DNA of 54,028 nt, taken from Candidatus Altarchaeota archaeon (lineage in GTDB: Archaea; SpSt-1190). Under the pieces are notes generated by a model. It saw nothing but the letters and a program-made list of their open reading frames with translations, did not search any database and was not told the DNA's origin. A program made the translations under genes and the position numbers. The DNA lies in assembly GCA_018220935.1 (NCBI GenBank), contig JAAOXU010000005.1:1-54028 (forward strand). Reading direction: 5' to 3'. This document shows, piece after piece, positions 1-51,854 of this stretch; positions within the stretch are counted from its first letter, which is position 1, and each line of letters starts with the position of its first letter.

Positions 1-59
1 ATACTAAGGGCATCCTTAGATGCAAGTTTCCTTTCGCAATATTGGCATTCGACTTTCAA
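1..59 (-). CDS. N-terminal fragment of a Cys-x2-Cys (zinc-finger-like) protein, truncated by window edge
   Basis: After the stop of the 357-aa ORF, TTG start at 59 gives (M)KVECQYCERKLASKDALS..., resembling the first half of a C2H2-like finger; runs off the window. Confidence 0.35.
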   Translation of the reverse strand, partial: MKVECQYCERKLASKDALS

Positions 60-1133
60 CTAACTTGCCTCCAAATCAGTAAATTTAACGTCTCCCATAG
101 CACTTATTTCTCTAAAGATATGTGTTTTATCATCTTCAACAGTTCCAACATTTGACCAGACACTATCAAGTGCTGGATATGGTTCAAAGTCACCTTGTAA
201 CACTATGGTTGGGATTTTTGTGATGCTGTATTTTTCAACCAAGGTCATGCCTTCTTCTGACCTAAACGCCAAAGTCTTTTCACTACTTAAAATTATTCCA
301 AAGTTAGGTAGTATTTGTTTATGAAGGGTGACATCATAACAGTCACTACATTCTTCATCAACTAACATAATGAGGTTAACTTGTCCTTTGATTTCACCTG
401 TAGTGGTATTTACATAAGGTCCTTGTGGATCAATTACAAAGTAATTATCTGTTGATGGTGCTTGAATGCTTTCCCATTGATCATAGAGTGAAATATCTTT
501 TGTAAACAAAATCGTAGGGACCCTCTCTATCTTATTTTCTTCAATTAGTTTAACTGCTTCACTTGAGGTTCTCTCAAGCTCCTTTGAAGTAATGCTTATG
601 CCTGTACTTGTTAGGCTCTGGATTAATGGATTTAGGTCCGCGCATATACTACAGTCTTTGTCTTTTAGTATAATGGCTCTAACTTGGCCAACTACGTTTG
701 ACGTGTCTGCATCAATATATGGTGGCTTAATCTCAGTATAAACTAAAGTACCGTCCGTCTTTTCAAATCCAGAGAATTCAAACTTATCTGTTTCTCCCCG
801 TAGTATGATGGTTGGTAAATTTTCAATCTTATGCGTTATTATTAGTTTTTGAGCTTCACTTGAGTCACTACTAACAAAGTTTTCAATGAGTATTTTCACA
901 TTATTTTCCTTGAAGTCGTTGTATGTACTTAAGATATCAAAACAACCTTCACAGTTCACTGTTATTATGGTTGCTTCTAACTCAGCAGGTCTACCTGCTT
1001 CACTTATTTCAAGTATCTTTTCATTTGCTAAAGCTGTTACACTCATAGTTGTTATTGAATTAAAAATTGCAACTACTGACAATACAATTAAACCACCTAA
1101 TATTAAATCTCTCATTTCTATTTCTTTTTTCAT
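60..1133 (-). CDS. Membrane-anchored/exported protein with three tandem thioredoxin-like units
   Basis: N-terminal hydrophobic segment; CEGC, CSIC and CSDC motifs, each followed about 55-60 aa later by a cis-Pro-type motif (LPTII, VPTIL, IPTIV). Confidence 0.75.
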   Translation of the reverse strand: MKKEIEMRDLILGGLIVLSVVAIFNSITTMSVTALANEKILEISEAGRPAELEATIITVNCEGCFDILSTYNDFKENNVKILIENFVSSDSSEAQKLIITHKIENLPTIILRGETDKFEFSGFEKTDGTLVYTEIKPPYIDADTSNVVGQVRAIILKDKDCSICADLNPLIQSLTSTGISITSKELERTSSEAVKLIEENKIERVPTILFTKDISLYDQWESIQAPSTDNYFVIDPQGPYVNTTTGEIKGQVNLIMLVDEECSDCYDVTLHKQILPNFGIILSSEKTLAFRSEEGMTLVEKYSITKIPTIVLQGDFEPYPALDSVWSNVGTVEDDKTHIFREISAMGDVKFTDLEAS

Positions 1134-1558
1134 TTCTTTTCACCTTTCCATATTTTGACTATAAGTAAATAAACCAAAATAACTGCGCCCGCTAACAAGG
1201 CAGTGTATAAAGCTTGATTGGTGGTTGAATTGACAAGTGTATTATAACCCATCATACCTCCCATCATGCCGTGATTTGTATTTTCACTAATGCCACAATA
1301 AATATTTTGACCCATTGCTACGTGCATTTCGTGAAGGCTTTCTGAATCTTCTCCACCCATCATCTTATCCATAACTTCGTGCTCCTCTCCTGGGTGCATT
1401 TGCTCCATATAATAATCCCCTAAACTTTCAAATTGTTCTTCACTTAATTGGTTGCAAGGAATTTCTGCATTTATTAATGCCTCAGCTTCAATAAACGTCT
1501 CATTGCTATGTGCGAATGAAGCGATTAATAAAAAAATAAATAAAAAGGCGGGCCTCAT
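1130..1558 (-). CDS. Exported Met/His-rich protein with C-terminal TM helix, possible metal binding
   Basis: Signal-like N-terminus, MDKMMGGEDSESLHEMHVAMG, NHGMMGGMMG, C-terminal TM. Confidence 0.6.
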   Translation of the reverse strand: MRPAFLFIFLLIASFAHSNETFIEAEALINAEIPCNQLSEEQFESLGDYYMEQMHPGEEHEVMDKMMGGEDSESLHEMHVAMGQNIYCGISENTNHGMMGGMMGYNTLVNSTTNQALYTALLAGAVILVYLLIVKIWKGEKK

Positions 1559-1559
1559 C

Positions 1560-1790
1560 TTAACATCCTCCCACCATGGTTTGTAGGCCTTGTATATTAT
1601 TTTGTAGGGTCTTAGTTACTTCTTCACCGCTACTTTCACTATTACTTCCGCCTGCAAACTTATTTGTGCTAATTTCGGCTGTCATACCTTCCATTGATGA
1701 AGATAGTAGCCTTAATTCAATTGCTTGCACTGTTGACACTACTAATAGTACGCCAACACTTATTGCCATTAACCACATTTTTTTATCCAT
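1560..1790 (-). CDS. Small exported protein with a single Cys at the extreme C-terminus (TMVGGC)
   Basis: 76-aa ORF, N-terminal hydrophobic helix, ends GLQTMVGGC; tightly packed in operon with GGAGG before next start. Confidence 0.6.
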   Translation of the reverse strand: MDKKMWLMAISVGVLLVVSTVQAIELRLLSSSMEGMTAEISTNKFAGGSNSESSGEEVTKTLQNNIQGLQTMVGGC

Positions 1791-1798
1791 TTTTTCAC

Positions 1799-2263
1799 CT
1801 ATATTCTCATAAATTCTTTTGTCTGTCCTTCACTTATTGAGTATATGACAAAGTCTCCACTTTTTGCACCTGGCATCCCTGGGGATCCAGAAGGCATACC
1901 GGGTAGAGCTATCCCCCCTATGTTTGGTTTCTCGTTTAATAGTTTAAACAAACCTTCCTTTGGGATGTGACCTTCAATAAAGTAATCACCTATCTTAGTG
2001 GTGTGACAACTATACATCCCTATAGGTATACCTAGAGATTGTTTTATTGAATTTAATTCAATGTCTTCAACTAATATAACTTCAACATCTGCACCTTTTG
2101 CCTTTAGATAGTCCGCATAATATGTACAGCATCCACAGCTTGGTGACTTATACACTTCCATTTTTATACCTTCAAACTCATTAGCACTTCCTGACGTTAG
2201 AAATGCACCTATTATTATTACCAAAGACAAACCTGTTATTATCCACATTTTCATTTTTAACAT
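1799..2263 (-). CDS. DUF411-family metal-binding protein
   Basis: MEVYKSPSCGCCTYYADYLKAKGADVEV... IPIGMYSCHTTKIGDYFIEGHIP matches DUF411 pattern. Confidence 0.85.
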   Translation of the reverse strand: MLKMKMWIITGLSLVIIIGAFLTSGSANEFEGIKMEVYKSPSCGCCTYYADYLKAKGADVEVILVEDIELNSIKQSLGIPIGMYSCHTTKIGDYFIEGHIPKEGLFKLLNEKPNIGGIALPGMPSGSPGMPGAKSGDFVIYSISEGQTKEFMRI

Positions 2264-3651
2264 CCTCCTACCATTGTGTTCAATCCTGCAGCACTAACTT
2301 TTGCAGGATCTTTTCCTGCGACATCAATACCAACTGCTACCATATTTCTTGGGAAAAAAGTTGTTTTCCAATTCATAACTTCTCTTAGTACCTGTGCATC
2401 ACTATAATCTGTATTTTCAATTAGTCCTAAGGTTACGGCTAATAGTGCTGGGTGATGTTGACAACCACATTTTGACCTTCCGTCTGCAGTTACTCCTTGA
2501 GGTCCAACACCACAACAATATTCACAACTTACCCCCCGGGGTGCCGCTGCTAAGTTAAGGTATCTTTCCCAACTTTCTGGATTATTTTTTACTTCTTCAT
2601 TTATTACATAATACCATTTTGCAAGATAACCTAGTGAATTTAGTGGGTCGTCAAAACTAACTCCACCTAAAATTTCACTGTATTCTGGTACCCCACTCGG
2701 CATCATTATTTGCATTACTTCTTCTTCTGTTTTTGCGCTTTGAAGTTCAGGAAATACTGATGCTACTGTTGCTGCAGTTGAAGATAAAGCAGATATGTCA
2801 ACATCTGCTAGAGTCCCTGCTAATTGGTTATTACTCATAAACAATATACTAGGTCCACCAAGTGCACTTGAAATACCCTGTATTTGTATTTGATTAAAAC
2901 CCATAACGGCTGCAACTAGGAAAATTCCTACTAGCATCAATGTATCAAAGCGTTCAAGTTTTGGATCTTTTTTAATCACATTAAACTTGTGCTTTTTCTT
3001 TTGTGGGCTAAGTTGCATAATTGAAAATCCCACCAACCCCAAAGATAAAAATTTTAACTCCAGTCCTTGAAACGGCAGTACTGCAAGTCCTGCAGATAAT
3101 CCAAGAGCTGAATAAAGAATTGCCCCACATGAAGGACACCCAACTGAGAATACCCATGCAAGTAACCCACCTGAACTTGAAACACTCATGTTCCTGTTTT
3201 TTATTGTTTTGTAAACATTCACTAATAATATGCCAATCATTGGGATGATTAGTGCACTAAGAACCATGCTTAAAGTTGTGTAAACAAACCCATTCATTTG
3301 TGTATATGAAAAAATACTGTAAGATGTTCTTGAGAGCATAAGGTAAAAATTAATTAACCAAAATATACCGATTAATATTAGGGTTTTTTCACCCCATAAC
3401 TTCGTGTGCTTTTTACTGAGGTATCCTGACATTAGACCCAGAGATACTGAAAATGCACCCACCACTAAAACACCTAAGGTTGCATACAACAAAGCTTCCT
3501 TTAAAAAGTAGTTAAATAAGGTGTATGAGCTTGTTGGTATAACTGAGGTTAAGACCATAAATCCCAGAAAAGACAGCGTTGTTACTTTCCCTGATAATTT
3601 CATCGCTTTTTTATCCGATACGAAGCCGTTAAATTCTTTTTTTAAATTCAT
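2257..3651 (-). CDS. Polytopic membrane protein with Cys-rich C-terminal domain
   Basis: Several TM segments, GCPSCGAILYSALG, then CEYCCGVGP...CGCQHHPALLAVTLGLIE, ends GLNTMVGGC. Confidence 0.7.
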   Translation of the reverse strand: MNLKKEFNGFVSDKKAMKLSGKVTTLSFLGFMVLTSVIPTSSYTLFNYFLKEALLYATLGVLVVGAFSVSLGLMSGYLSKKHTKLWGEKTLILIGIFWLINFYLMLSRTSYSIFSYTQMNGFVYTTLSMVLSALIIPMIGILLVNVYKTIKNRNMSVSSSGGLLAWVFSVGCPSCGAILYSALGLSAGLAVLPFQGLELKFLSLGLVGFSIMQLSPQKKKHKFNVIKKDPKLERFDTLMLVGIFLVAAVMGFNQIQIQGISSALGGPSILFMSNNQLAGTLADVDISALSSTAATVASVFPELQSAKTEEEVMQIMMPSGVPEYSEILGGVSFDDPLNSLGYLAKWYYVINEEVKNNPESWERYLNLAAAPRGVSCEYCCGVGPQGVTADGRSKCGCQHHPALLAVTLGLIENTDYSDAQVLREVMNWKTTFFPRNMVAVGIDVAGKDPAKVSAAGLNTMVGGC

Positions 3652-3660
3652 TATATCACC

Positions 3661-4137
3661 TTATTCTTTACAACAGTCCACTAACTTTTTTACTATGTTT
3701 GTGACTTTGTCCCATTTACCTTTTTTTATCTTTCCTTTATTCACACCTTCAATATTAAGTTTCCAAAATAATGAGTATAGATAAAATGCGTCGTTAAATT
3801 TATCTTGAGCTTCTTTTTTCTTGCCTTCTCCTTGATACTTAGTTCCAACCTCGATTAACCTCATCGAAGTGGCTAAAAGATGTTTTGAAATGCACCAAAC
3901 TTCTCCTTCTGGTTTCTTAACAATTTCTTTTAGTAATTTTTTTCTCATACTTCGCATTTCATTAAGTAATTCAAGATATTCTTCTTTGCCCGTCTTCATG
4001 GCTGAAAAATACATATGTTCTTCTAGTGAAATTAGATTCATTATTGCTATTGATAGGTCTTCACCCCTTGACAAATCAATTCCATCTAAACTCCCTACCT
4101 TTTTTACTAATTCTTTTGCATCCATCATATCGCCCAC
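3661..4137 (-). CDS. Conserved helical hypothetical protein
   Basis: 158-aa ORF, LSIAIMNLISLEEHMYFSAMKT; in same-strand cluster. Confidence 0.6.
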   Translation of the reverse strand: MGDMMDAKELVKKVGSLDGIDLSRGEDLSIAIMNLISLEEHMYFSAMKTGKEEYLELLNEMRSMRKKLLKEIVKKPEGEVWCISKHLLATSMRLIEVGTKYQGEGKKKEAQDKFNDAFYLYSLFWKLNIEGVNKGKIKKGKWDKVTNIVKKLVDCCKE

Positions 4138-5024
4138 GTAAATATTCTTTCTTCAACGCCATATACACCATAAATGGTGAGTTCAAGTCTGTCTGTATTT
4201 TCAAGTTTTGGAAATGTCAATATACCTGATCTATGGTGACCTCCACTAAGTGAACCTTCCCAACTGATTGGCTGATACGTGTTCCCTTCTGCGTCTTCTA
4301 AAATACTAACTTTAGTCATATCATAATCTAAACTACCTTGATGTGTGTTTAGTGCAACATCAAATTTGATTGGTTCATAAAAATTAAATTCAATTGGTGT
4401 GATTTCTATAGTCAAACTATTTTCACTATTTGTTTTTGTTCCTAAATTTGCAGTATTTTGTGAAACTACTGGGGTTGCAGTTGCACCAATAAATATTATG
4501 GGGAGTGCTAAAATTGCTAGTGCGAGTGTAATATTTTGAAGTGATTTAAAATCTTGTTTTATTAACCAAGTTGGACCCTTAATTGCCATATTTTCTTTAG
4601 CTACTTTTAGCATCATAAATATCCCAAATATATTTGAAAATAAACCGATTGCCAAAAAGAAAGTCTGATACTTCATTAAAAATAGTGATGCTGCCGACAC
4701 ACCAATAATTGGTAAGACGTCTGTAAGACGATGTGCACAGCATGCAACCATGGAGGCCATTGATACGCCACCTGATGTTGCCATTTCTACCTTGCCTTTA
4801 TTGTCCTTTATGTGGGTATTTATTTTAGTGTATAAGTATGCTTGTATACCAAATCCAAAAGATAATGCGATTATCCAATACCACATTGATGTGAATTGAC
4901 TAACTGCGTATTCAAAGGAATTTGAAAGCGTTAACGTTCCAAAATAAAACAAGAGTAATGCGATTCCAGCGCCCACACCTATTAACTTGGCTTTAGTTTC
5001 ACTCATCACTTTAGAATCCCCCAA
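4125..5024 (-). CDS. Membrane protein with CCAH motif (metal-transport-like) and extracytoplasmic beta domain
   Basis: TM segments, VACCAHRLTDVLPIIGVSAASLFL, C-terminal soluble region. Confidence 0.65.
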   Translation of the reverse strand: MGDSKVMSETKAKLIGVGAGIALLLFYFGTLTLSNSFEYAVSQFTSMWYWIIALSFGFGIQAYLYTKINTHIKDNKGKVEMATSGGVSMASMVACCAHRLTDVLPIIGVSAASLFLMKYQTFFLAIGLFSNIFGIFMMLKVAKENMAIKGPTWLIKQDFKSLQNITLALAILALPIIFIGATATPVVSQNTANLGTKTNSENSLTIEITPIEFNFYEPIKFDVALNTHQGSLDYDMTKVSILEDAEGNTYQPISWEGSLSGGHHRSGILTFPKLENTDRLELTIYGVYGVEERIFTWAI

Positions 5025-5515
5025 GTTATTATGCTTGAAACTAACAGGCTTAAAATGATAAATACGATTGTTTGATATGGGAAAAGTAGCCCCTTCTTTT
5101 GTTTAACTATAGTGCTTACTTTCATTGCACCAACTAAAAGACTCCCACCAACAAGAATTCCAAGCAGTAGTCTATCTATTCCAAAAAGTGAACCTGAGGG
5201 CATCATCATGTAGATTGCATGTTTACTACCGCCAATAAAACCCGCACCATATAGTGGAATTACAAGAGACAAAATAGTTAGTAATACTATTATTGCTTCT
5301 TGACCTTTGATATATTCCCTTTTTAGTGATTTATTAAACCACAGTGCAGTTGAAACCAAAAGGGCACCGAGCCAAAAACCAACAATGATGTCATCAACTC
5401 CATAAAATCGAGTAATTGCAACTCCTGCTCCTGCTGCTGCAGTACAAAGTGGGCAATGTGCCTTTATTGGAACTAACCCCATCATCAAAGTCGCAATGAT
5501 TTTTCCCCAAACCAC
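5006..5515 (-). CDS. Polytopic membrane protein with HCPLC motif
   Basis: KAHCPLCTAAAGAGVAITRFYGVDDIIVG; GTG start; multiple TM segments. Confidence 0.65.
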   Translation of the reverse strand: MVWGKIIATLMMGLVPIKAHCPLCTAAAGAGVAITRFYGVDDIIVGFWLGALLVSTALWFNKSLKREYIKGQEAIIVLLTILSLVIPLYGAGFIGGSKHAIYMMMPSGSLFGIDRLLLGILVGGSLLVGAMKVSTIVKQKKGLLFPYQTIVFIILSLLVSSIITWGILK

Positions 5516-5551
5516 AATAGAATTAACGTGAAACTCCTTATGGTCTATTGT

Positions 5552-5567
5552 ATGAAACTAGTTTCAT
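5552..5567. promoter_or_regulatory. 16-bp perfect palindrome, candidate operator
   Basis: ATGAAACTAGTTTCAT, identical to its reverse complement, 36 bp upstream of the 5515 start and 24 bp from the regulator stop. Confidence 0.55.
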
Positions 5568-5591
5568 TCAATTAAAAATGTTTTATTGGGT

Positions 5592-6059
5592 TTAATCTTC
5601 TTTTAACACAATTACATTAGTCATGCCACGTCTACGTCTCTCAATTACACCTTGTCCTTCAAGACGATCAAGTGCACGAGTAACTTTAACTTTACTAAAT
5701 CCAGTTTCTTCAACAATTTCAGATTGAAATATTGCACCGTTTGATTTAATAACAGTTTCAAAAATAGTTCTTTCATCAGATTTCATGGTTTTTAGAATTT
5801 TTGAATAGTCTTTTTTTGGTGTTGATTTTTCACCGTAAATTAAAAAGTAAATTCCAAGAGTGAGTACAGCAACAATTATTGCAATACTCGTATGTGTTTG
5901 AAATTCAATTGTACTCCACATCGTACACGTTAATCCGTGATCACATGTTGCTGCTACAATTCCTGAAAGTGCTGTATTAAATGACCACGTAATAAAAGCA
6001 ATTAATAAAGATATTCCAATAAGCAGCATACCAAATTTTTTTCCATCCATGTTACTCAA
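5592..6059 (-). CDS. Membrane-anchored winged-helix transcriptional regulator
   Basis: Two N-terminal TM segments with CDHGLTC between them; C-terminal wHTH (IVEETGFSKVKVTRALDRLEGQGVIERRRRGMTNVI). Confidence 0.8.
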   Translation of the reverse strand: MSNMDGKKFGMLLIGISLLIAFITWSFNTALSGIVAATCDHGLTCTMWSTIEFQTHTSIAIIVAVLTLGIYFLIYGEKSTPKKDYSKILKTMKSDERTIFETVIKSNGAIFQSEIVEETGFSKVKVTRALDRLEGQGVIERRRRGMTNVIVLKED

Positions 6060-6108
6060 AAATTAAAAAGACAGGAGTTTTTAAACCCCTTACCCCTTCA
6101 TAAACGCC

Positions 6109-6309
6109 TTATCCACAATTTGCAGAACCTTGTGGTATATTGAATCCTTGTGGCGCTGCTTGCGGTTGTGGTAATTGCTGTAATGGTGCTACGTCTTGTG
6201 TGTTTACTTCAGGTAAACCAATATCAGCTGCACTAGTAACGGTTGCAGTTAATGCACCGACTAGAACCAAAACAATTACAAACAATTTCATGTCGAAACT
6301 TCCATTCAT
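6109..6309 (-). CDS. Small secreted Pro/Gln-rich peptide with a single Cys
   Basis: Signal peptide-like MKLFVIVLVLVGALTATVTSA; ends PQGSANCG. Confidence 0.55.
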   Translation of the reverse strand: MNGSFDMKLFVIVLVLVGALTATVTSAADIGLPEVNTQDVAPLQQLPQPQAAPQGFNIPQGSANCG

Positions 6310-7283: not shown

Positions 7284-7568
7284 TTATGTCTGTCTAAATA
7301 CTTTGATTACACGTCCCAGAACATCGCTTTTTTGTACTAAACCAAAGTGTCTACTATCTGTACTCCCGAGTTTATTGTCTCCGCGTAGTTCAATTCCTTT
7401 TTTAGTTACTTTGTAGACCCTTTTCATAAGTAATTTATGATCTCGTGGGTCTTTTGCAACCACAACACAGTTTTTTTGAGTCTTAAAAAACTTAAAAATA
7501 AGAACGAAGTCCCCTTCTCTTGCGTAAGGGGACATACTACTTCCTTTGACTTTTAGTATCTCAATCAT
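7284..7568 (-). CDS. sodX: S26-type peptidase, Ni-superoxide dismutase maturation protease
   Basis: VKGSSMSPYAREGDFVLI (Ser), LMKRVYKV (Lys), LRGDNKLGSTDSRHFG; directly downstream of NiSOD. Confidence 0.85.
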   Translation of the reverse strand: MIEILKVKGSSMSPYAREGDFVLIFKFFKTQKNCVVVAKDPRDHKLLMKRVYKVTKKGIELRGDNKLGSTDSRHFGLVQKSDVLGRVIKVFRQT

Positions 7569-8080
7569 TTTCCCTCGCCCGCGGGGGATTTGTGAACTAC
7601 TATCTCCCCACCAGTTGGGTATGTTGATGGAATCCTTAAAGTTTCAAGTCCCTTAGTTTTGTAGAAAATCTCTGCCAATTTTTGAGTCTTATTTAGTAAT
7701 GTTTGTGCTATACTTGTGTTTATTTCCTGTTTTGTTTTTGAAGCAAGTTTTAAGATTTCTAAAATTAAACTATTTAGTTCTGAATTTTCTTTAAAATGAT
7801 TTTCTTTAAAATAATCTCCATACAAAATCCTTACTTCTTGTTTTAATTTTTCTGCGTGATCTTCTTTGACTTTTGTGTATCGTGCGATTCTATGTACGTG
7901 TTCATTCTTACTTGGTTCTGGTATGGCTTCAATTAATCCAACCATCCTAATTATTGTGTGTGCACAAACCTGTGCTTCGTAGGTATCATATATTCCACAA
8001 GGTACATCACAATGTGCATGTACTTTTCTAAATCCCGTTCCGCGGGAAAACTTTAACAATTTATCTATCTTTTTTAGCAA
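7565..8080 (-). CDS. sodN: Nickel superoxide dismutase with propeptide
   Basis: HCDVPCGIYD nickel-hook after about 22-aa propeptide ending KVHA; helical remainder as in SodN. Confidence 0.92.
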   Translation of the reverse strand: MLKKIDKLLKFSRGTGFRKVHAHCDVPCGIYDTYEAQVCAHTIIRMVGLIEAIPEPSKNEHVHRIARYTKVKEDHAEKLKQEVRILYGDYFKENHFKENSELNSLILEILKLASKTKQEINTSIAQTLLNKTQKLAEIFYKTKGLETLRIPSTYPTGGEIVVHKSPAGEGK

Positions 8081-10450: not shown

Positions 10451-10498
10451 TTAGATTCGTGGCCTTAGTTGTTTAAAACTCTTATATGTTCTACTTTT

Positions 10499-11074
10499 GT
10501 GATTGGAATCTTAGCATTAGGTAATGAACTTAGGGGTGATGATGGGGTTGGAATCTATGTTGGGAAAGAATTAGAAAAATGTAGCATACCTGTGACTTTT
10601 GGCTTCTCAACTCCTGAAAATCTAAAAGAGATACCCTACTCCAAAATAATTGTTGTGGATGCAGCTCATTTTGACCTTTCAGTTCCGTTTCTTATTGGAA
10701 AAGATACTATTAGTCACTATACACATAAGCCTAGTCTTGATAAGCTGGCTAAATTTTTTGGTGTTGAGTATACTGTCTTTGGAATCAAAACGTATAATAG
10801 GGAACTAGGTAATAAGATTTCAGAGCAGGCAAGAAAAAATGCCGACTTTACAATTAGGGTGATAAAAGTGTGTATGGCAATTCCGGGGGTAGTGGTTGAT
10901 GAGGGTAAAAAAGTGGTTGATTTAGGCCACAAAACTAAACAAGTTAAATTTGCAATTCCTCATTTAAAAAATGGAGATTTTGTATTAGTTCATGCAGGTA
11001 TGGTAATTGATAAGTTAAGTGAAGATGATTATAAAAATGCTAAAGACGCATTAAGTGGATTATCTTGTGAATAA
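10499..11074 (+). CDS. Fusion of HycI-type hydrogenase maturation endopeptidase and HypC-type chaperone
   Basis: N-part IGILALGNELRGDDGVGIYV...IVVDAA (HycI/HyaD); C-part VCMAIPGVVVDE...GDFVLVHAGMVIDKLSEDD (HypC/HupF); GTG start chosen, ORF open to 10469. Confidence 0.85.
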   Translation: MIGILALGNELRGDDGVGIYVGKELEKCSIPVTFGFSTPENLKEIPYSKIIVVDAAHFDLSVPFLIGKDTISHYTHKPSLDKLAKFFGVEYTVFGIKTYNRELGNKISEQARKNADFTIRVIKVCMAIPGVVVDEGKKVVDLGHKTKQVKFAIPHLKNGDFVLVHAGMVIDKLSEDDYKNAKDALSGLSCE

Positions 11075-12235
11075 ACCAATTTGTGATGCAGACATATCAA
11101 ACAATGTATTTGGGAATAGTCCTAAGTATAGTGAAAGGAAGAATAATGCAATAATTACGGCTTTTAGTTTCTTATCAACTTTAATTGATTTTGAGCCTTT
11201 GATTTTTGATATGATTCTTAAGGCAACAAACGCGCTTAAAATCATATTAACCACTAAAAAATATGAGAGTGGGTTGTGGATTGAAAATACAGATGAGAAC
11301 AAAATTATTTTACTTGGGAATAAGTGAAACGGTGGGAGACCTGCTAGTATTAAGAAAGCACCATAAAACGGCAGTTCAAGACCTCTTGGAATCCAAAGAT
11401 CTTTTAGACTTTTTGCTTTTGAAGCTTCAATAACTGCGAAGACAAGAGTTATTGCTAGTACGTGGGAGAACATCATGTAAAGGGCTGCTACTCTTGATGC
11501 AGAACTCGCAACTGAGATAGCCACTAAATCATATGCTAGATTAGAAGCGTCAATTAATGCGATTAGCCTAAGAAGTGAAAGTTCAGATAGTGCCATTAGG
11601 TTTGCAATTAACATAGACAATAATGCAAAAGCGGTTATTGTGGGGGATGGTCTAGTTATTACCATAAGAAGTGCTAGTGGACTAATTTCAGTTAAGACTG
11701 ATGAGAAAAATATTCGCATCTCAAAATCAACTGATTTATAGATTTCAACTAGCCAATCCTGAAATGGTGCAATACCTAATTTTACAAGAAGGCCTAAAAC
11801 AAAAAATATGGTAGCTTCAGGTGTTAGTGCTGTGATTAAACCTGTCTTAAAAAATGAAATTGCAATGGCAAATAGCATGAGTGCACTCCCCACTGAATTT
11901 ACAATAAAGTACCGAAGTGTTGCTTTTCTATGTTCAAAAATCAAGAAGTATGAAGCATAAATTGCAAGTTCAAAATAAATGAAAAGTTCAACTAAGGTTT
12001 GACTGTTTATTATTCCAATAAGATCAAACATGGCTAAAAAGAAGAGTGGATATTTTGCGTTTTTCCAATTTGATAACCACATTATCATTAAGGATAATGC
12101 AAAGAAAAAAGTAGCTAATGAATATCCACCTATTGATGAATTTATCGTTGCGTAGATGAAAGCTAGGGCTGTTAGTGGTTTTCTCCATTCTTTAGTGAAT
12201 GGAAGCAGCAACGCTATTATTAAGAGGACATCCAT
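11060..12235 (-). CDS. Antiporter-like membrane subunit (ND2/NuoN-like)
   Basis: Polytopic; GLLVKLGIAPFQDWLVEIYKS; in hydrogenase operon. Confidence 0.75.
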   Translation of the reverse strand: MDVLLIIALLLPFTKEWRKPLTALAFIYATINSSIGGYSLATFFFALSLMIMWLSNWKNAKYPLFFLAMFDLIGIINSQTLVELFIYFELAIYASYFLIFEHRKATLRYFIVNSVGSALMLFAIAISFFKTGLITALTPEATIFFVLGLLVKLGIAPFQDWLVEIYKSVDFEMRIFFSSVLTEISPLALLMVITRPSPTITAFALLSMLIANLMALSELSLLRLIALIDASNLAYDLVAISVASSASRVAALYMMFSHVLAITLVFAVIEASKAKSLKDLWIPRGLELPFYGAFLILAGLPPFHLFPSKIILFSSVFSIHNPLSYFLVVNMILSAFVALRIISKIKGSKSIKVDKKLKAVIIALFFLSLYLGLFPNTLFDMSASQIGLFTR

Positions 12236-13341
12236 GGTATCACTCCGGGAAGTAGTAGTAGTGCAATTATTAGTGGTAAAGCTGATTCAAGTTTGACTGG
12301 GCTCTTTCTAAAGAACATACTAATTAATCGTTCAATGTAAAAAATTGAAGGGAAAATCGCAAATAAGAAAAATATAACTCCAACTGGACTCTTAGTCATC
12401 AATTGAGTTAATATTGAGAATTCTGCCATGAATCCAAGAAGTGGTGGAAAACCAATTAGTGAAAGACAAGCAATCAATACTGAAACAAAAAGAGTCTTTG
12501 AATAAACTCCGCCTGAAACTGTGTTGACACCATTCTTAATGAATTCACCCACACTAAAGAAAAGAGATGATTTTGCAAGTGCGTGAGCAATTAAAAATAT
12601 GATAACTGCTTCTGGTGCTGCCCACAATGCAACTGCTACAAAGCCCATTTGTGAAACTGTTGAATACGCGAGTAATCGTTTTAAGTCGTGTTCAGCACTA
12701 GCACCAATTGCACCATAAATGGCAGAAATTATTCCAATTGGTACTAAAATTTCGGGGGTAGTTGAATAAATTAAAATACCAAAGGCACCTAGTGCAACAA
12801 TCAAACTACTAAGTAATGCGGAGACGGGGGTTGGTGCTTGTGAGTGTGCATCGGGTACCCACGAATGGAATGGGAAAATACCCATCTTAATGGCAAAACC
12901 AAGTGTCAAAATCATTGAGCCTAAAATTCCACCACTGAGTAGGCCTGCTAGTATTAGAATTGACGCCGTTTGCATAAATCCAAAGTATTTGAAAGCCGCA
13001 TTCTTGTCTTCTTTTAGTAATAAGTAAAAAGTTGGGAATATGATTAATTCTAGGAAAAAGAAAGCTTGAATTATACTATTTGTTCCAAGAAAACCAATAA
13101 TTCCTGCAATGATTATTATTAACATTGAAATTTGCTCTTTTGAAAAATCTCTTGCATATACTAGGGCCGTCATACAAATAATTGCGGCTGCAAAAACTAT
13201 TGATTCATATGGTGGTGACCATGAAAACATTATCCCAGGTAGCCAAGAATAGTAGAATTGTTCTGAGATGAATGCAAAGGAAAGAATGGCAGACCATCTT
13301 GCAATTTGAGGGTGTAGGTAAGCTAAAAGTGCCGAAACCAA
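12220..13341 (-). CDS. Antiporter-like membrane subunit (ND4/NuoM/MrpD-like)
   Basis: FAIKMGIFPFHSWVPDAHSQAPTPVSALLSS. Confidence 0.9.
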   Translation of the reverse strand: MVSALLAYLHPQIARWSAILSFAFISEQFYYSWLPGIMFSWSPPYESIVFAAAIICMTALVYARDFSKEQISMLIIIIAGIIGFLGTNSIIQAFFFLELIIFPTFYLLLKEDKNAAFKYFGFMQTASILILAGLLSGGILGSMILTLGFAIKMGIFPFHSWVPDAHSQAPTPVSALLSSLIVALGAFGILIYSTTPEILVPIGIISAIYGAIGASAEHDLKRLLAYSTVSQMGFVAVALWAAPEAVIIFLIAHALAKSSLFFSVGEFIKNGVNTVSGGVYSKTLFVSVLIACLSLIGFPPLLGFMAEFSILTQLMTKSPVGVIFFLFAIFPSIFYIERLISMFFRKSPVKLESALPLIIALLLLPGVIPWMSS

Positions 13342-13355
13342 CAGTATGCCAATTG

Positions 13356-14738
13356 TTATCGTATTATTACCCCCAAAGCTAGTGCTGCAAGTGAGACTGC
13401 AATATAACTCACGTCCCCTCTTATGTCTTTTGTGAATATGTAATTTATACCTTGTGACAATTTTTTAGTTCTTTTTTCTACGCCACTTGCCCAGTTCTCT
13501 AAATATTCTTCAGGTGGACTAACCTCAACAAAAACCCATTCAGTTGATTTTGAAAGTTTTTCTGAAATGTTATTTAATGATTTTGAATCAAATAATTTGT
13601 ATGCTAAAAGTGCCGCACCAAAGAAAATGACTAAGCTTTCTGCTTGTGGTATACTTATTGGATAAAATCCAATTGAACTCAAACCTAAACCTAAAGGAAC
13701 TAAAATTTTCCAATTTCTTGGCGGTGTCATATTACCTGAAAATGTATTACTAAAGAGCTTGAAAAAGTATAGAAGTGAAAAGAATGTAATAATTGCTGAA
13801 CTAAAGTTTTGCATTTTTAACCAGTACAATCCAAAGAGAGGTGCACCACTCAGTGAAAACATCAAAAATAATGAGAGTATACCTTCAAGTGACCTTGGAT
13901 TAAAACCAAGGTTAAGTGCGTAATTTGTATCTCTTGAATATAACTCAACTAATAAGAAATATGCTGCTTTAGTTAATGCATGAATTAAAAATGCAAATAT
14001 GAAGTTTTCTGAATTAAAAAATGCATATAAAAATCCGAGGTTAACAATGGTTGAATACGCAAGAACTTCCTTTTGGTTATTTGAACTTATGGCTAGGATG
14101 GTTGCTATAATAATTGAGAGTGTAGTCCAAACTGAAATTAGACCACTTAAGAATAAAAAGTGACTCGAAAATCGTGATATGAGTAAAGGTCCGACTGCAA
14201 CTGCCGTTACTGAGTGAATTAGTGCTGAAACGGGTGTTGGTGCCCTTACTGCGTCTTTTAACCATAAAAATGGGAATTGGGATGACTTAATCATACCTGC
14301 AATTAAAATTAGTAATGCTGATGTTGGTGGAATTATTGAAAATTCAAAACTACCTGAAATACTATAAATTATTCCAATTGCAGTTAAAAGAAGTAAACCG
14401 CTGATTCTGTTAAGTATAAAAATTTTTCTAGCCGATTTCTTGTTAAATGCGTTTGATGAATTAATTAAAAGATATGCGAGTACGCTCATGAGTTCCCATG
14501 CAAAATAAAGATAAATCCAATCGTTTGCACGTAAGAACAAAATCATACCGAGTAAAGATAATACAATTAAGCTTCCGTTTTTCTTAGTTCTTGTAAAACT
14601 CAAAGTAGCTAGTGTAATAAATATGATAGTTTTCTCAAGTATGGTTGATGCTAGTAATAGTGAATAGCCGGCTGTAAGAAAACCTAATAAGGGTAAAACT
14701 TGGTATAAAATACTGGAAACTAAAAGTTCAATTATCAC
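13356..14738 (-). CDS. Antiporter-like membrane subunit (ND5/NuoL/MrpA-like)
   Basis: MIKSSQFPFLWLKDAVRAPTPVSALIHSVTAV. Confidence 0.9.
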   Translation of the reverse strand: MIIELLVSSILYQVLPLLGFLTAGYSLLLASTILEKTIIFITLATLSFTRTKKNGSLIVLSLLGMILFLRANDWIYLYFAWELMSVLAYLLINSSNAFNKKSARKIFILNRISGLLLLTAIGIIYSISGSFEFSIIPPTSALLILIAGMIKSSQFPFLWLKDAVRAPTPVSALIHSVTAVAVGPLLISRFSSHFLFLSGLISVWTTLSIIIATILAISSNNQKEVLAYSTIVNLGFLYAFFNSENFIFAFLIHALTKAAYFLLVELYSRDTNYALNLGFNPRSLEGILSLFLMFSLSGAPLFGLYWLKMQNFSSAIITFFSLLYFFKLFSNTFSGNMTPPRNWKILVPLGLGLSSIGFYPISIPQAESLVIFFGAALLAYKLFDSKSLNNISEKLSKSTEWVFVEVSPPEEYLENWASGVEKRTKKLSQGINYIFTKDIRGDVSYIAVSLAALALGVIIR

Positions 14739-14973
14739 TAAATAACCTCCTATAATATCTAGTCTTTAGTTTTTTTAGTAAGAGTAATGAGAACGCAAAT
14801 GGAACTGCTTCAATTACTAACATGAGTAACACTAGATTTTGTGCTCCTGATTTTACGAGTAGCATTATTGCTGGGAGTGTAATTAAACTAGTTAGGGCTG
14901 CAACTTTGATTAGATCGTCATACTTAATTAAACCATATATTGAAATTGCTAAAATTCCTAATTCGTAAATCAT
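14728..14973 (-). CDS. Small membrane subunit (NuoK/MrpC-like)
   Basis: 81 aa, three TM segments, position in operon. Confidence 0.6.
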   Translation of the reverse strand: MIYELGILAISIYGLIKYDDLIKVAALTSLITLPAIMLLVKSGAQNLVLLMLVIEAVPFAFSLLLLKKLKTRYYRRLFSDN

Positions 14974-15131
14974 TTGACAACCTCCAAACCTACTGCAAAA
15001 GTGAAAATAAGTGCGAATGCCAAATAAATTTCTGTTGAGTTAATTATTGGGTTTGATATTAGTGGTGCCGGATTACCCAGTAAAAGATACGTTGAGACAA
15101 AAAGCACCAAAGCAATTAACTTATTCTTCAC
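14970..15131 (-). CDS. 53-aa small membrane subunit of hydrogenase complex (not in ORF track)
   Basis: GTG start; VKNKLIALVLFVSTYLLLGNPAPLISNPIINSTEIYLAFALIFTFAVGLEVVK; stop TGA overlaps ATG of next gene; fills an otherwise empty operon gap. Confidence 0.65.
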   Translation of the reverse strand: MKNKLIALVLFVSTYLLLGNPAPLISNPIINSTEIYLAFALIFTFAVGLEVVK

Positions 15132-15306
15132 TTACTTCACCTCCAAATGTGAGTAGTGCTAAACTACCCATAATCGCACCAACTGATTGGACTACTGCTG
15201 CTAAAATCATGCCATATGAGAATATCCACAAGCCTGCAACTAATCCTACCATTAAAAATGAAAGAGCAATCCTGTCATGACTCTTTGAGATCACAACCCA
15301 AGCCAC
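15121..15306 (-). CDS. Small membrane subunit (MrpA C-terminal/NuoJ-like)
   Basis: LSFLMVGLVAGLWIFSYGMILAAVVQSVGAIMGSLALLTFGGEVSEE; start uncertain. Confidence 0.55.
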   Translation of the reverse strand: MAWVVISKSHDRIALSFLMVGLVAGLWIFSYGMILAAVVQSVGAIMGSLALLTFGGEVSEE

Positions 15307-15314
15307 TAAAATCG

Positions 15315-16109
15315 TTAGTACAAGTTCAATGATATTATCACTTCCAGCATTGCTACTATGTTGAGTATAGTCAAATACTTTATTAATTTTTTAACGCTAA
15401 AACGAGGCAAAAGCGATGACAAAAGGACCATAAAACTGAAAATTCCAAGAGATTTTAAGAAAAAGTAGTTAGGTCCCCACATATATGCTAATAAGGCTGA
15501 AGCTGCCACTGCTTTAGCGTAATGGGCATAATTAACACAAGCTAAAAGTACGCCTGAAAGCTCTGCTTTCCACCCGCTAGCTATTTCTCCTTCAGCTGTT
15601 GGTATGTCAAATGGCGTCATTTCAAGTTCGGCCATTGAAGCAATTAATGCTAACGGGAAAAATCCTACAGCTACCATTGGCCAGCTTATAGGATTAAATC
15701 CAAATAAGAATGCAGGTGCTAAGACTGAAAGAGGAAATGCAGGATCTAGGGCCATTTTTAGTCCTGCTAGTCGAGACATTCCTTGCATACTATATGGGCT
15801 CTTAACTGAATATGCTAAAAATGTTTTAATTAAAATATCTAATAAAAATAAAGTTATCAAAAATAACACTACATAATTTACTCTATTAAGTGCCAAAAAC
15901 ATTGCAAGAACACTATTTATTAAGAGTAGTGGTGGTGCTAAAACGAAAATAAGTTTCTTGCCGTGTGGTATTATTACTTCTTTTTTGAATAATTTAATAA
16001 AATCATATATGGGTTGTAGCAATGGTGGACCGACTCGCCTTTGAACTTTGGCGTGCATTTTTCTATCAATCCACTCATAAAAAAACGGCAGTAAAACTTC
16101 ATACCCCAT
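15315..16109 (-). CDS. Hydrogenase membrane subunit, NuoH/ND1-like
   Basis: HAKVQRRVGPPLLQPIYDFIKLFKKE; EMTPFDIPTAEGEIASGWKAELSG. Confidence 0.92.
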   Translation of the reverse strand: MGYEVLLPFFYEWIDRKMHAKVQRRVGPPLLQPIYDFIKLFKKEVIIPHGKKLIFVLAPPLLLINSVLAMFLALNRVNYVVLFLITLFLLDILIKTFLAYSVKSPYSMQGMSRLAGLKMALDPAFPLSVLAPAFLFGFNPISWPMVAVGFFPLALIASMAELEMTPFDIPTAEGEIASGWKAELSGVLLACVNYAHYAKAVAASALLAYMWGPNYFFLKSLGIFSFMVLLSSLLPRFSVKKLIKYLTILNIVAMLEVIISLNLY

Positions 16110-16287
16110 TAGTCCACCCCTTAATTAGTGCCAGTAATAATATGATGCTGGCTTTTGCGTCCCAAGGCATAATAAATATGGCCCCATGAATTGCAATTAA
16201 CAATAAAAATATTTTATAAGAATTAACGGTGGCTTGCCTAGCTTTGACCTTGACTCCGCCTGAAAATGGATTCCTTTTATTACTCAT
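16099..16287 (-). CDS. Small membrane subunit in hydrogenase operon
   Basis: 62-aa ORF overlapping NuoH-like start, hydrophobic helices. Confidence 0.5.
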   Translation of the reverse strand: MSNKRNPFSGGVKVKARQATVNSYKIFLLLIAIHGAIFIMPWDAKASIILLLALIKGWTNGV

Positions 16288-16360
16288 TTTTCATCACCTA
16301 CAGGGGCTCCGCCCCTTGTAACCCCTAATTTTTGAGTTTGTTTACTCACTTTTCATCACC
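16280..16360. repeat. 19-nt direct repeats (18/19) flanking a GC-rich hairpin
   Basis: ttactcatttttcatcacc (16280-16298) and ttactcacttttcatcacc (16342-16360); between them aggggc-tcc-gcccct. Confidence 0.75.
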
Positions 16361-16548
16361 AATGCTTTTGTTGGACAAACTTCAGTGCAAACAGAGCAAC
16401 GTATACACATTTCGTGATCAACTTTAATGAATTTGTCTTTAACTACTTTAATTGCAACTGCGGGACAATGCTTTACACAAAGGTGACATTTGATACATTT
16501 ACTCTTCGTATAGTCAACTCTTCCTTCTGCCCACTTAGGGACAGTCAT
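16342..16548 (-). CDS. 2[4Fe-4S] ferredoxin subunit of hydrogenase
   Basis: CIKCHLCVKHCP and CIRCSVCTEVCP; start at MTVPKWAEG. Confidence 0.9.
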   Translation of the reverse strand: MTVPKWAEGRVDYTKSKCIKCHLCVKHCPAVAIKVVKDKFIKVDHEMCIRCSVCTEVCPTKALVMKSE

Positions 16549-16558
16549 CTTGTCCCCT

Positions 16559-16975
16559 TTAAGCGTCTCTTTTTTCTTTAACAGTCCTTTCGCTCCCTTT
16601 AGAAACAAGTAATTTTCCTCCTTCTTTTATGGCTTCTATTATTTTCGTTGGTCGTGGTGGACAACCCTGAACTTTTATATCCCCTTTAATTCGTGGCCCA
16701 GGACACTTAAATATGCCTCCATTAAGCGCACAGGCACCGATTTCAATTAAAACTCTTGGCTCAGGCACTTGATCTAATACTTGTTGTGCCTTTTCACTTA
16801 ATTTTTTTGTACCACAACCTGTGAGTAAAACAATATCAGCATGACGTGGGCTAGCTACTCTTTTAATTCCAAATCTTTCGACATCAAATCTTGGGGAAAA
16901 AAGGGTAAGTTCTTCTAATTCACATCCATTACATGTGCCTTGACTTAGCATGTAAACCCAGGGTGATTTTTTCAT
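16559..16975 (-). CDS. [NiFe]-hydrogenase group 4 small subunit
   Basis: GTCNGCELEEL, IGACALNGGIF, VQGCPPRPTKIIEAI. Confidence 0.92.
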   Translation of the reverse strand: MKKSPWVYMLSQGTCNGCELEELTLFSPRFDVERFGIKRVASPRHADIVLLTGCGTKKLSEKAQQVLDQVPEPRVLIEIGACALNGGIFKCPGPRIKGDIKVQGCPPRPTKIIEAIKEGGKLLVSKGSERTVKEKRDA

Positions 16976-18111
16976 ATTGAAACCTCCCTTGTTGTTTTAG
17001 TGGATCTGTCAATTACAATGACTCTATCTGTACATGCAAAGCAAGGATCAATACTACTAATTACAATTGGAACATCACTCATAGTACCACCCTTTAACAT
17101 ACTGGGGATTGCTACCATATTTGCGAAGGTAGGCGGTCTTGCTCTAAAGAATTTAGGTGTTTGAATCCCCGATTGTAAAAAATGAAAATTTTCTCCACGT
17201 GGTGCTTCAACTATTTGTGATGCTTCACCTTCTTTTGACGTATAAATTGGCTTTGCGGGTTCAATCTTTTTTCTTGGTAATTCGTCTAAAATTTGAGTTG
17301 TAATATGCAAACTCTCCCAAATTTCCTCGAGCCTGACTACCGCTCTTGCATATGAGTCTCCACCGTTTTGAGTTGGAACTTTAAAGTCAAGATCTTCATA
17401 TGCTGAGTATGGATTATCTCGTCTTACATCCATGTCAAGACCACTACCTCTTGCAGTTGGTCCAACTACTCCAAATTTTTCGGCCTTAGTTTTACTCAAT
17501 AATCCAACGCCTTTTAGTCTGTCTTCTAAAAATTCATTTGACATAAAAAGTTCATATGTATCTTTGTACTTGTCTGTCATCTCCTTTAATTCAGCTTTTA
17601 GAAAGTCTAAACTAGCCTTATTGAGATCTCGATAAACTCCGCCGAGTCTAACATAATTATAATGAATTCTTTTACCAGATATATTTTCTAACATATTAAG
17701 TGCGTGTTCTCTTGCACCCCAACTTTTCATAAAAAGTGTATCAAAACCTGAACTTTCTCCTAAAATACCTAACCAAAGTAAATGGCTGTGGATTCTTTCA
17801 AGTTCTGCTCCAAAACTTCGAATTTGTTTAGCTTTTGGACTTACTGTTAGTTGATTTATTTTTTCAAATGCAATGCCAAAAGCTTGCGTGTGTGCTGAAC
17901 TACAAATACCGCAAATTCGTCCCAATAGTATTAGGGCTTTTGGCCACGTAAAACTCAAAACTTTCTTTTCTATTTCCCTATAATTATAACCTAGGTCAAA
18001 ATCAACATTTACAATTTCTTCCCCATCTAAGACTACCCTAAAATACTCTGGTTCCCCTAATGCAGGGTGGTATGGTCCGAATGGTACTTCAACTCTTGGC
18101 ATATCAATCAC
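16972..18111 (-). CDS. [NiFe]-hydrogenase group 4 large subunit
   Basis: Both nickel-ligand motifs: RICGICSSAH and DPCFACTDR, followed by a 15-16 aa C-terminal tail. Confidence 0.95.
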   Translation of the reverse strand: MIDMPRVEVPFGPYHPALGEPEYFRVVLDGEEIVNVDFDLGYNYREIEKKVLSFTWPKALILLGRICGICSSAHTQAFGIAFEKINQLTVSPKAKQIRSFGAELERIHSHLLWLGILGESSGFDTLFMKSWGAREHALNMLENISGKRIHYNYVRLGGVYRDLNKASLDFLKAELKEMTDKYKDTYELFMSNEFLEDRLKGVGLLSKTKAEKFGVVGPTARGSGLDMDVRRDNPYSAYEDLDFKVPTQNGGDSYARAVVRLEEIWESLHITTQILDELPRKKIEPAKPIYTSKEGEASQIVEAPRGENFHFLQSGIQTPKFFRARPPTFANMVAIPSMLKGGTMSDVPIVISSIDPCFACTDRVIVIDRSTKTTREVSI

Positions 18112-20914: not shown

Positions 20915-21652
20915 ATGGCACGAGATTTACGAATTTTTTGGAGTAGTTTTTTCTTTGTACTTGGTTTTTCAGTTATTTTTTCACTTTTAGGGGTTTTACT
21001 ACAGAGTTTACTTGTTAGTGTTTCTTATGCTGCTAAGACCCTTTTAGCTAAACTTGGTGGAATCATCATTATTTTCTTTGGTATTTACTTAACTGGTATC
21101 TTAAAAATTCCATTTTTTGAAAGGGAACATAAATTTAAGCCCAAAAAAACTAACTCATCTTACCTGACTTCATTTATTTTTGGTGCTGCTTTTGCGCTTG
21201 GATGGACGCCTTGTGTTGGTGCAGTTTTAGGTGCAATTTTAACTTTAGCAGCAACCACTCCTTCAATTGCTTTTTTCCTACTTCTTAGCTATTCACTGGG
21301 GTTAGGACTTCCGTTTTTAATTATGGGCTATTTTGTGGATGAAGCTCAACGATTTTTCGTTAAGGGTGGCGGTAAATACACTAAATACATTGGACTTCTC
21401 AACAAGGTATTTGGTGTGGTCCTCATCTTAATGGGTGTGGCAGTTTTCACTAATAGTCTTGGTAAACTTGCGAACTTTGGGGGTGCTGTTGAACTCCTTT
21501 TAAGTCTTGAGACGGGATTAAACTTAGGTACGACTGTGAATTTAGGTGTGGCTTTCCTTGCTGGAATAATATCTTTTCTTAGTCCATGTATACTACCTTT
21601 GATGCCTGCTTTTCTAACATATCTTGCATCGATTGGGGTTAATCATGAATAA
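20915..21652 (+). CDS. CcdA-family thiol-disulfide transmembrane protein, apparently circularly permuted
   Basis: Internal GWTPCVGAVLGAIL plus C-terminal AFLAGIISFLSPCILPLMPAFLTYLA, normally the N-terminal helix. Confidence 0.85.
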   Translation: MARDLRIFWSSFFFVLGFSVIFSLLGVLLQSLLVSVSYAAKTLLAKLGGIIIIFFGIYLTGILKIPFFEREHKFKPKKTNSSYLTSFIFGAAFALGWTPCVGAVLGAILTLAATTPSIAFFLLLSYSLGLGLPFLIMGYFVDEAQRFFVKGGGKYTKYIGLLNKVFGVVLILMGVAVFTNSLGKLANFGGAVELLLSLETGLNLGTTVNLGVAFLAGIISFLSPCILPLMPAFLTYLASIGVNHE

Positions 21653-28767: not shown

Positions 28768-29331
28768 CTACCTCTTTTTAGTTCGTGTAGTTCTTTTAGC
28801 TTTAGACTTTCTAACTGCTGTTTTTCTGGTTGATTTTTTCTTAGTAGTAGCCCGTTTAGTTGTCTTTCGCTTTACTGGTCTTTTAGTAGTCTTTCTTGTA
28901 GTCTTCTTGACCGTTTTCCTTTTAGTCGTTGGTTTTCTTGTAGTCTTTCTTTTTGTAGTTTTTTTAATAGTTCGTTTCTTAGTCGTTGGTTTTCTTGTAG
29001 TTGTCTTCTTTACAGTTCGTTTCTTAGTACTCGTTTTTCTTTTTACAGGTTTTCTAGTAGTAGTTCTTTTAGTAGTCTTTCTTGTAGTCTTCTTGACCGT
29101 TTTTCTTTTAGTCGTTGGTTTTCGTGTAGTTTTCCTTTTAGTAGTCTTTCTGGTTGTAGTTTTTTTCTTTACGGGTTTTCTAGTTGTTGTCCTTTTAGTT
29201 ATCTTCTTTGCTGTTGTCTTTCTTGTAGTTGTCTTCTTCTTTACTGTCGACACCCTACGTGTAGTTTTTTTCTTTACAGCTGTCTTTCTAGAAGTCTTCT
29301 TTGCCGTGGTTTTTGATTTTTTAACTGGCAT
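28768..29331 (-). CDS. Lys/Thr/Arg-rich low-complexity protein (histone H1/Hc1 tail-like)
   Basis: 187 aa of TTRKPxKRKT/KKTTRKTTKR repeats; start ATG, clear stop. Confidence 0.75.
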   Translation of the reverse strand: MPVKKSKTTAKKTSRKTAVKKKTTRRVSTVKKKTTTRKTTAKKITKRTTTRKPVKKKTTTRKTTKRKTTRKPTTKRKTVKKTTRKTTKRTTTRKPVKRKTSTKKRTVKKTTTRKPTTKKRTIKKTTKRKTTRKPTTKRKTVKKTTRKTTKRPVKRKTTKRATTKKKSTRKTAVRKSKAKRTTRTKKR

Positions 29332-29381
29332 ATTTTTTCACCTAAAGCATTTGCTTTAGAACTTATGCGTCGATTTTTTAT

Positions 29382-49781: not shown

Positions 49782-50111
49782 ATGAAATCAAAAGATGTTA
49801 ATCCTGATGAAGCCTACGATTATTTTTTAGGAACTTTAGCTAATAGGACTCGCCTGAAAATAATAAAAGAGCTTCTAAAAGGGGAAAAAAACGTCGGTCA
49901 ATTAACTGTCGCTATTGGAGTTGACCAGAGCACGATTTCAAATAATTTAAAGCGATTAAGAGACTGCGGGTTTGTTAACGCGAAGCCCAATGGAAAGCAA
50001 CGAATATACATTTTAAATAGAGAAACTATTGAACCTTTGATAAAACTTATTGATACTCACGTGAATAAATATTGTATTAATTGTGTTAGGGGGAGTTCTT
50101 TTGGAGAATAA
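49782..50111 (+). CDS. ArsR-family transcriptional regulator
   Basis: LANRTRLKIIKELLKGEKNVGQLTVAIGVDQSTISNNLKRLRDCGFV; C-terminal YCINC. Confidence 0.92.
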   Translation: MKSKDVNPDEAYDYFLGTLANRTRLKIIKELLKGEKNVGQLTVAIGVDQSTISNNLKRLRDCGFVNAKPNGKQRIYILNRETIEPLIKLIDTHVNKYCINCVRGSSFGE

Positions 50112-51513: not shown

Positions 51514-51848
51514 ATAAAAAAGATAAAGAGATGGTGGCTGTAGGAGGATTAGCAGGTTTATTTGCCTCTCTTTGTTGCCTTGGACCCGTAGTGCTTGTAG
51601 CACTTGGTCTTGGCGGGGTGTCAACCGCATTAACAATCGGAAAATATTCTGAAATTTTTACACTTTTGGCCTTGTTGTTCTTTGGAATTGCAGTAGTCTA
51701 TTATCTTAAAGGAAAAGACAGTTGTTCTGCTAAAGGTGTTAAAGAAAATTGGAAAATAATCGTGTTGTCGTTTGTGGTATTCTCAATATTTTTAATAATA
51801 CTAAAATATTGGGCAGCACCATTGCTGGCGGAATTGGTGTATAGGTGA
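51498..51848 (+). CDS. MerT-like mercuric transport membrane protein
   Basis: GLAGLFASLCCLGPVVLVALGLGG. Confidence 0.8.
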   Translation: MLRGINKKDKEMVAVGGLAGLFASLCCLGPVVLVALGLGGVSTALTIGKYSEIFTLLALLFFGIAVVYYLKGKDSCSAKGVKENWKIIVLSFVVFSIFLIILKYWAAPLLAELVYR

Positions 51849-51854
51849 TAAAAA

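Follow-up and report, generated by a model that had tools for sequence, protein, structure and literature searches.

The Sox system of sulfur oxidation employs the CcdA-type protein SoxV and the thioredoxin SoxW to handle the thiol of SoxY. In SoxY, a cysteine within a C-terminal GGCGG sequence carries the substrate on an arm of the system (PMC6067878). CopG, of the DUF411 family, binds a tetranuclear copper cluster through a CxCC motif, and in Bradyrhizobium TlpA reduces the cysteines of CuA (PMC7558416). DPANN archaea have NosZ-like CuA proteins that stand alone; a role in N2O reduction has been suggested for them, and their gene neighbours are reported to be mainly acyl-carrier-protein genes (PMC10936187). 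Here we compare these systems with a gene island of Candidatus Altarchaeota archaeon (assembly GCA_018220935.1, contig JAAOXU010000005.1). The stretch analysed, hereafter the window, comprises 54,028 nucleotides from the start of a contig in an 850-kb Altiarchaeota metagenome-assembled genome (MAG) that is 88% complete. The island consists of ten open reading frames (ORFs) read 5'→3' from position 6309 to 60, and two of its products, a 464-residue protein (A) and a 76-residue protein (B), share the C-terminus TMVGGC, on which the first-pass annotation had not remarked. We propose, at a probability of about 0.45, that these tails are tethered thiol arms that carry copper and are reduced via CcdA and thioredoxin.

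SoxY appears to be the nearest analogue of the MVGGC arm. In each, an extracytoplasmic protein has a cysteine next to glycines at its very C-terminus, and this cysteine sits on an arm that serves or would serve several partners; the flexibility of A and B is predicted from sequence features such as the low-complexity linker and VGGC-COOH end of B. Unlike SoxY, the tails end at the cysteine rather than in GGCGG, two membrane-anchored proteins share them, the context is one of copper rather than sulfur, no SoxY/SoxZ domain or Sox gene was recognised, and the Pfam and NCBIfam matches of A and B include no SoxY family. The island DUF411 protein resembles CopG in its CxCC and SCHT motifs and its alignment to PDB entry 6wis, so that cluster binding is predicted from the family, although it forms one component only of the island. 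We know of no described CopG operon in which linkage to MVGGC-tailed A and B proteins is a part. Related loci encode CcdA (PF02683) together with extracytoplasmic CxxC thioredoxins, as in DsbD-like relays, and in relatives CcdA-fed thioredoxins are joined by a CuA-type cupredoxin, a combination that recalls CuA assembly by CcdA, TlpA, Sco and PCuAC. In contrast to that pathway, the neighbours include no recognised gene for Sco or PCuAC, and A, B and a triple thioredoxin-like protein stand in their place. The cupredoxin itself may correspond to the DPANN NosZ-like CuA proteins of PMC10936187, being likewise a small secreted archaeal protein that lacks a CuZ domain and has a CuA motif of the form C-x3-C-x3-H, whereas its gene here lies inside a copper/thiol island.

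The MVGGC tail shared by proteins A and B

In the window's genome, no protein ends of the TMVGGC type were found beyond those of A and B, and the terminal residue of B is its sole cysteine (residue 76 of 76). Relatives of A, sought with a profile of its C-terminal domain, were found in 26 of the 394 archaeal genomes sampled. A DNA pattern encoding MVGGC followed by a stop codon occurred in 20 of these 26 genomes versus 6 of the 368 others (Fisher p=2.4e-23; the co-occurrence statistics count genomes as independent), and it gave 43 hits versus 8 scattered ones for a reversed control pattern. The tails are near-invariant: 40 of the first 42 A proteins end in [MQ][VAI]G[GASR]C, one of them with an extra glycine, and at a further 40 loci, picked for the position of the match irrespective of the tail, A ends in MVGGC in 36 and an adjacent small transmembrane (TM) protein bears the tail in 39. 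Altogether, A has a Cys tail in 76 of the 82 loci examined. Its tail-less homologues (L066:7300-9116, L127:2806-3794, L145, L150, L155 and L157; L and G numbers denote loci and genomes) always adjoin a tail-bearing B, and B's is the more constant of the two tails. Across 23 aligned B proteins, V-G-G-C is the sole invariant part, and the helix end VQAxQL is weakly conserved.

The two tails also vary jointly. QVGGC in A is matched by QVGGC in B at three loci, and the lone A that ends in MAGACG (L058) is paired with a B ending in MAGSCG. Residues upstream of VGGC agree within A/B pairs in 87 cases versus 54.9 expected, a value reached by 0 of 20,000 shuffles, with genome relatedness not removed. 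The codons of the A and B tails differ both in the window and in G003, where the stop codons differ too; selection therefore acts on the protein and not through a copied piece of DNA, and gene conversion was rejected as the source of the shared tails on the basis of these two genomes. Arm docking to a common set of partners best explains a linker-borne terminal thiol on two proteins that change in step. A common recogniser would also produce such changes in what is the sole feature shared by two otherwise dissimilar proteins, and VGGC-COOH could then be a tag read by an enzyme or receptor acting on both A and B, which would be anchored, lipidated or cross-linked through the cysteine. We consider a tag improbable: no single extra enzyme family is present at all loci, several small loci hold only A, B and the thioredoxin, and B would have nearly nothing left if its tail were merely a tag. 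Moreover, no NCBIfam sorting-signal model matched, and in both proteins the chain ends at the cysteine, with neither a TM helix nor a basic cluster behind the motif, unlike a signal of the sortase or archaeosortase type.

The tail pair is thus demonstrated, and we infer its function. No description of an MVGGC motif in this sense was found in the literature; as far as the literature shows, the pair is undescribed. It is widespread in archaea, recurring in dozens of archaeal families, and the libraries searched hold no family for it. At three loci (L062:7547-7960, L147 and L163), a single A is accompanied by two different B-type proteins, so the number of tails can rise. Of the six pattern matches in genomes with no A, five are short frames without a gene-like appearance. 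The sixth (L136:1958-2128, in the 3.6-Mb archaeal genome G331, where no A was detected) encodes a B-like secreted peptide of 56 residues ending in LPSMVGGC, whose gene lies among neighbours unrelated to copper or thiols.

Protein A carries the motif C-E-x-C-C-G…C-G-C-x-H, with five cysteines and one histidine invariant in 42 of 42 A proteins. The first-pass annotation had listed GCPSCG and CCGVGP…CGCQHH separately; one 464-residue protein holds both. In most genomes, A has about 230-300 residues and one TM helix, and the multi-TM fused form of the window recurs in an unrelated phylum (L120). Within single phyla, A is present in 19 of 87 genomes (the phylum of G028) and 78 of 279 (that of G230). 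Plasmid searches with A and the VACCAH protein and a scan of viral contigs with A returned no relatives. No Pfam, NCBIfam or PDB family matched A, PDB profile searches gave nothing credible, and 23 homologues compared with Pfam and NCBIfam yielded scattered single chance matches only. A likeness of its domain to the three-helix domains of CcmH or PCYCGC was suspected from the motif layout alone and is not claimed, as the CcmH match, at 1.9e-5 slightly short of the cut-off, fell on a neighbour (L046:4232-5089) and not on A.

Gene context of the tail pair

The first-pass annotation had named a lack of conserved linkage as evidence against its reading; the linkage proved to be conserved, with the gene set recurring around 42 related loci and the gene order kept in two relatives (G003 and G006). 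A genome of the same genus (L006/L002) has the same genes in the same order as the window island, the VACCAH gene of L006 being cut down to its last ~59 codons, and one of the same family (L007/L003) has the same island genes in a slightly rearranged order. In both relatives, a CuA-type cupredoxin (C-x3-C-x3-H-x2-M; COX2 Pfam match of 2.6e-9 in L006) is encoded just upstream of A. These stand-alone proteins lie at L006:11675-12088 and L007:1979-2377 (minus strand).

Within 8.5 kb of A, the 42 loci, many of them on short contigs, have a context of copper and thiol genes. A two-TM protein with a MarR-like domain (TM-MarR) is encoded at 23 loci and a P1B ATPase or fragments thereof at 21, of which 16 have CPC or CPH motifs and one is clearly of the Zn type. 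CcdA is found at 16 loci, and the triple thioredoxin-like protein and a GHHP..ECL peptide at 13 each. Cupredoxins occur at 11 loci (5 with the CuA motif), DUF411 at 10, a PadR-TRASH regulator at 9 and homologues of the Met/His-rich protein at 5. At the genome level, DUF411 is present in 11 of 26 A-bearing versus 12 of 368 other genomes (p=9e-9). In the window, no P1B ATPase lies near the island, which begins at the contig end, and CcdA is encoded outside it at 20915-21652. Because of the DUF411 co-occurrence, the CopG match and the copper-type neighbours, copper is the best-supported metal, and a thiol-disulfide electron supply is the second constant theme.

The first-pass annotation had suggested an extracytoplasmic copper/mercury or disulfide system. 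Its copper and thiol parts are well supported by the linkage, by DUF411 as a member of the CopG family, and by the copper-type ATPases, CuA cupredoxins and TRASH regulators of related loci; its mercury part is not. Detoxification of mercury, or of soft metals in general, instead of copper would agree with the two-Cys membrane motifs VACCAH and HCPLC, which are MerT-like in layout, and with the mer operon in the window. That operon, however, stands apart from the island at a distance of about 44 kb. In the related loci examined we recognised none of the mer genes, and the ATPases near A, with one exception, have the CPC or CPH motif of the copper type. Short TM proteins with paired cysteines are also typical of MerT/MerP, but no island protein had a Pfam match to MerT or HMA, and the real MerT and MerP are encoded elsewhere in the window. 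We regard the mercury alternative as very improbable.

Island genes and other features of the window

The island genes are listed in Table 1 in their 5'→3' order. The downstream end of the island, at position 60, lies at the contig start, where the assembly may truncate it. The first-pass annotation had counted nine ORFs on one strand; the common strand holds and the number is ten. The triple-CxxC unit, the DUF411 and Met/His-rich proteins, the VACCAH and HCPLC membrane proteins and the two small single-Cys proteins that it listed were all found, and the 158-residue and MarR-like ORFs are additional to those it had named.

Table 1. Genes of the island. Fractions are related loci with a homologue.
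Feature	Position	Strand	Characteristics
Secreted peptide, 66 residues	6109-6309	-	Ends in NCG; Cys 65 of 66
TM-MarR, two-TM protein with cytoplasmic MarR-like winged helix	5592-6059	-	Pfam PF24034/MarR; outer Cys pair CDHGLTC
HCPLC four-TM membrane protein	5006-5515	-	14/42
VACCAH membrane protein	4125-5024	-	C-terminal DUF5643-like domain (weak match, below cut-off); start may be shorter; 16/42
Soluble protein, 158 residues	3661-4137	-	Ends in CCKE; motif EVWCISKHL; 10/42
Protein A, 464 residues	2257-3651	-	N-terminal multi-TM domain with GCPSCG, then extracytoplasmic CExCCG..CGCxH domain, then tail MVGGC
DUF411/CopG-type thioredoxin-like copper protein, membrane-anchored	1799-2263	-	CGCC and SCHT motifs; Pfam PF04214 5.6e-22; PDB 6wis 1.7e-20
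Protein B, 76 residues	1560-1790	-	One N-terminal TM helix, low-complexity linker, C-terminal MVGGC
Met/His-rich secreted protein, C-terminally anchored (YYMEQMHPGEEHEVMDKMMGGE)	1130-1558	-	12 Met and 6 His in 142 residues
Triple thioredoxin-like protein, membrane-anchored	60-1133	-	CxxC motifs CEGC, CSIC and CSDC; Cys 61/64, 161/164 and 262/265; weak thioredoxin Pfam match

In the TM-MarR protein, Cys39 and Cys45 fall between the two TM segments, and this outer-loop pair is retained in most TM-MarR homologues near A. The protein is probably a one-component transmembrane regulator and a candidate thiol or metal sensor. The 66-residue peptide may not belong to the island, since the closest relative (L006) has no counterpart at the same place.

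A nickel superoxide dismutase (PF09055, 6e-37; hook HCDVPCGIYD) is encoded within 7284-8080, where its gene overlaps a short, sodX-like gene for an S26 signal-peptidase-like protein. A nickel superoxide dismutase also lies beside the island in L006, together with a peroxiredoxin and a CCC1-like protein, and a ferritin gene is found nearby in the window. The mercury resistance operon (49782-52196) encodes an ArsR-type regulator, a MerA-type reductase ending in CCVE, MerT and a MerP-like HMA protein, all confirmed by Pfam, and is accompanied by a Zn-type P1B ATPase (whole region, 49782-54028). Going by a reading of the sequence only, positions 10469-18111 encode a hydrogenase maturation protease and a membrane-bound group-4-like [NiFe] hydrogenase with antiporter-like subunits, genes that are syntenic upstream of the island in L006, and positions 30837-37158 hold a complete bacterial-type uvrB-uvrC-uvrA set in this archaeal genome. 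A histone H1-like protein with Lys/Thr/Arg repeats is encoded at 28768-29359, where the repeats create a long antisense ORF.

Proposed role of the tails

We propose that the island serves as a module for copper handling and thiol redox reactions outside the cytoplasm, under the control of the TM-MarR sensor. Judging by charge and by the position of the TM segments, A and B would each expose, on the outer side of the membrane, a flexible C-terminal arm with Met-Val-Gly-Gly-Cys at its tip. The last residue, the cysteine, would be the working atom and would form with the nearby methionine a mobile ligand for soft metals and thiols, and electrons from CcdA, passing through the triple-CxxC thioredoxin, would keep it reduced. 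The tail cysteine could then visit the CExCCG..CGCxH domain of A, the CopG-type DUF411 protein and the two-Cys membrane proteins, and in relatives also the CuA cupredoxin and the Cu+-ATPase, so that the arm would hand Cu(I) and, where needed, electrons between the cysteine proteins of the island. B would act as the free tethered shuttle, and A, which has an arm of its own, as the partner that docks or does the work.

Several observations weigh against this proposal. A is tail-less at 6 of 82 loci, so its copy of the arm is not essential; the AlphaFold models of A (464 residues) and of its C-terminal domain (three sequences) have mean predicted local distance difference test (pLDDT) scores of 39 and 46, respectively, too poor for a fold search; and the MAG of the window, which is 88% complete, yielded no CuA-type cupredoxin. 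Two further points are shared with an alternative, a pure redox relay, in which the tails would be substrates or relays of CcdA and the triple thioredoxin, much as SoxV and SoxW reduce SoxY, and would carry no metal; copper genes would adjoin them because copper oxidises surface thiols. First, several loci have glutamine in place of the tail methionine, which weakens a Met-Cys metal ligand. Second, the most reduced loci hold A, B and the triple thioredoxin with or without CcdA (L047, L048, L049 and L051), and at L048 and L051 these three stand alone with no copper gene recognised nearby. As the smallest loci consist of A, B and the triple thioredoxin, the irreducible core may therefore be redox and not metal, and the retention of all three CxxC motifs in the homologues of most loci carrying this thioredoxin is in line with such a relay. 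The smallest loci thus point to the thiol part as the core of the system. The repeated and strong link to copper-type ATPases, CopG, the CuA cupredoxin and TRASH regulators nevertheless speaks against a relay that carries no metal, and we judge it rather unlikely, while giving it more weight than a tag.

Returning to the copper-carrying arms, we suggest tentatively that proteins ending in MVGGC-COOH form a class of membrane-tethered carrier arms not recognised before. In it, a minimal shuttle (B, scarcely more than a TM helix and a terminal thiol) and a partner (A) with one docking tail in common would carry Cu(I) or electrons from one extracytoplasmic protein to another in many archaeal lineages. 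A five-residue C-terminus as the conserved element of a protein pair is rare, and in one large archaeal phylum the MVGGC pair recurs in roughly one of every four genomes sampled. The island also gives a genomic context to DUF411, stand-alone CuA proteins and several uncharacterised membrane families, and adds a candidate transmembrane one-component sensor of thiols or metals. The C-terminal thiol of such a small, tethered protein offers a simple, testable handle on extracellular copper and disulfide handling in largely uncultured, mostly small-genome archaea.

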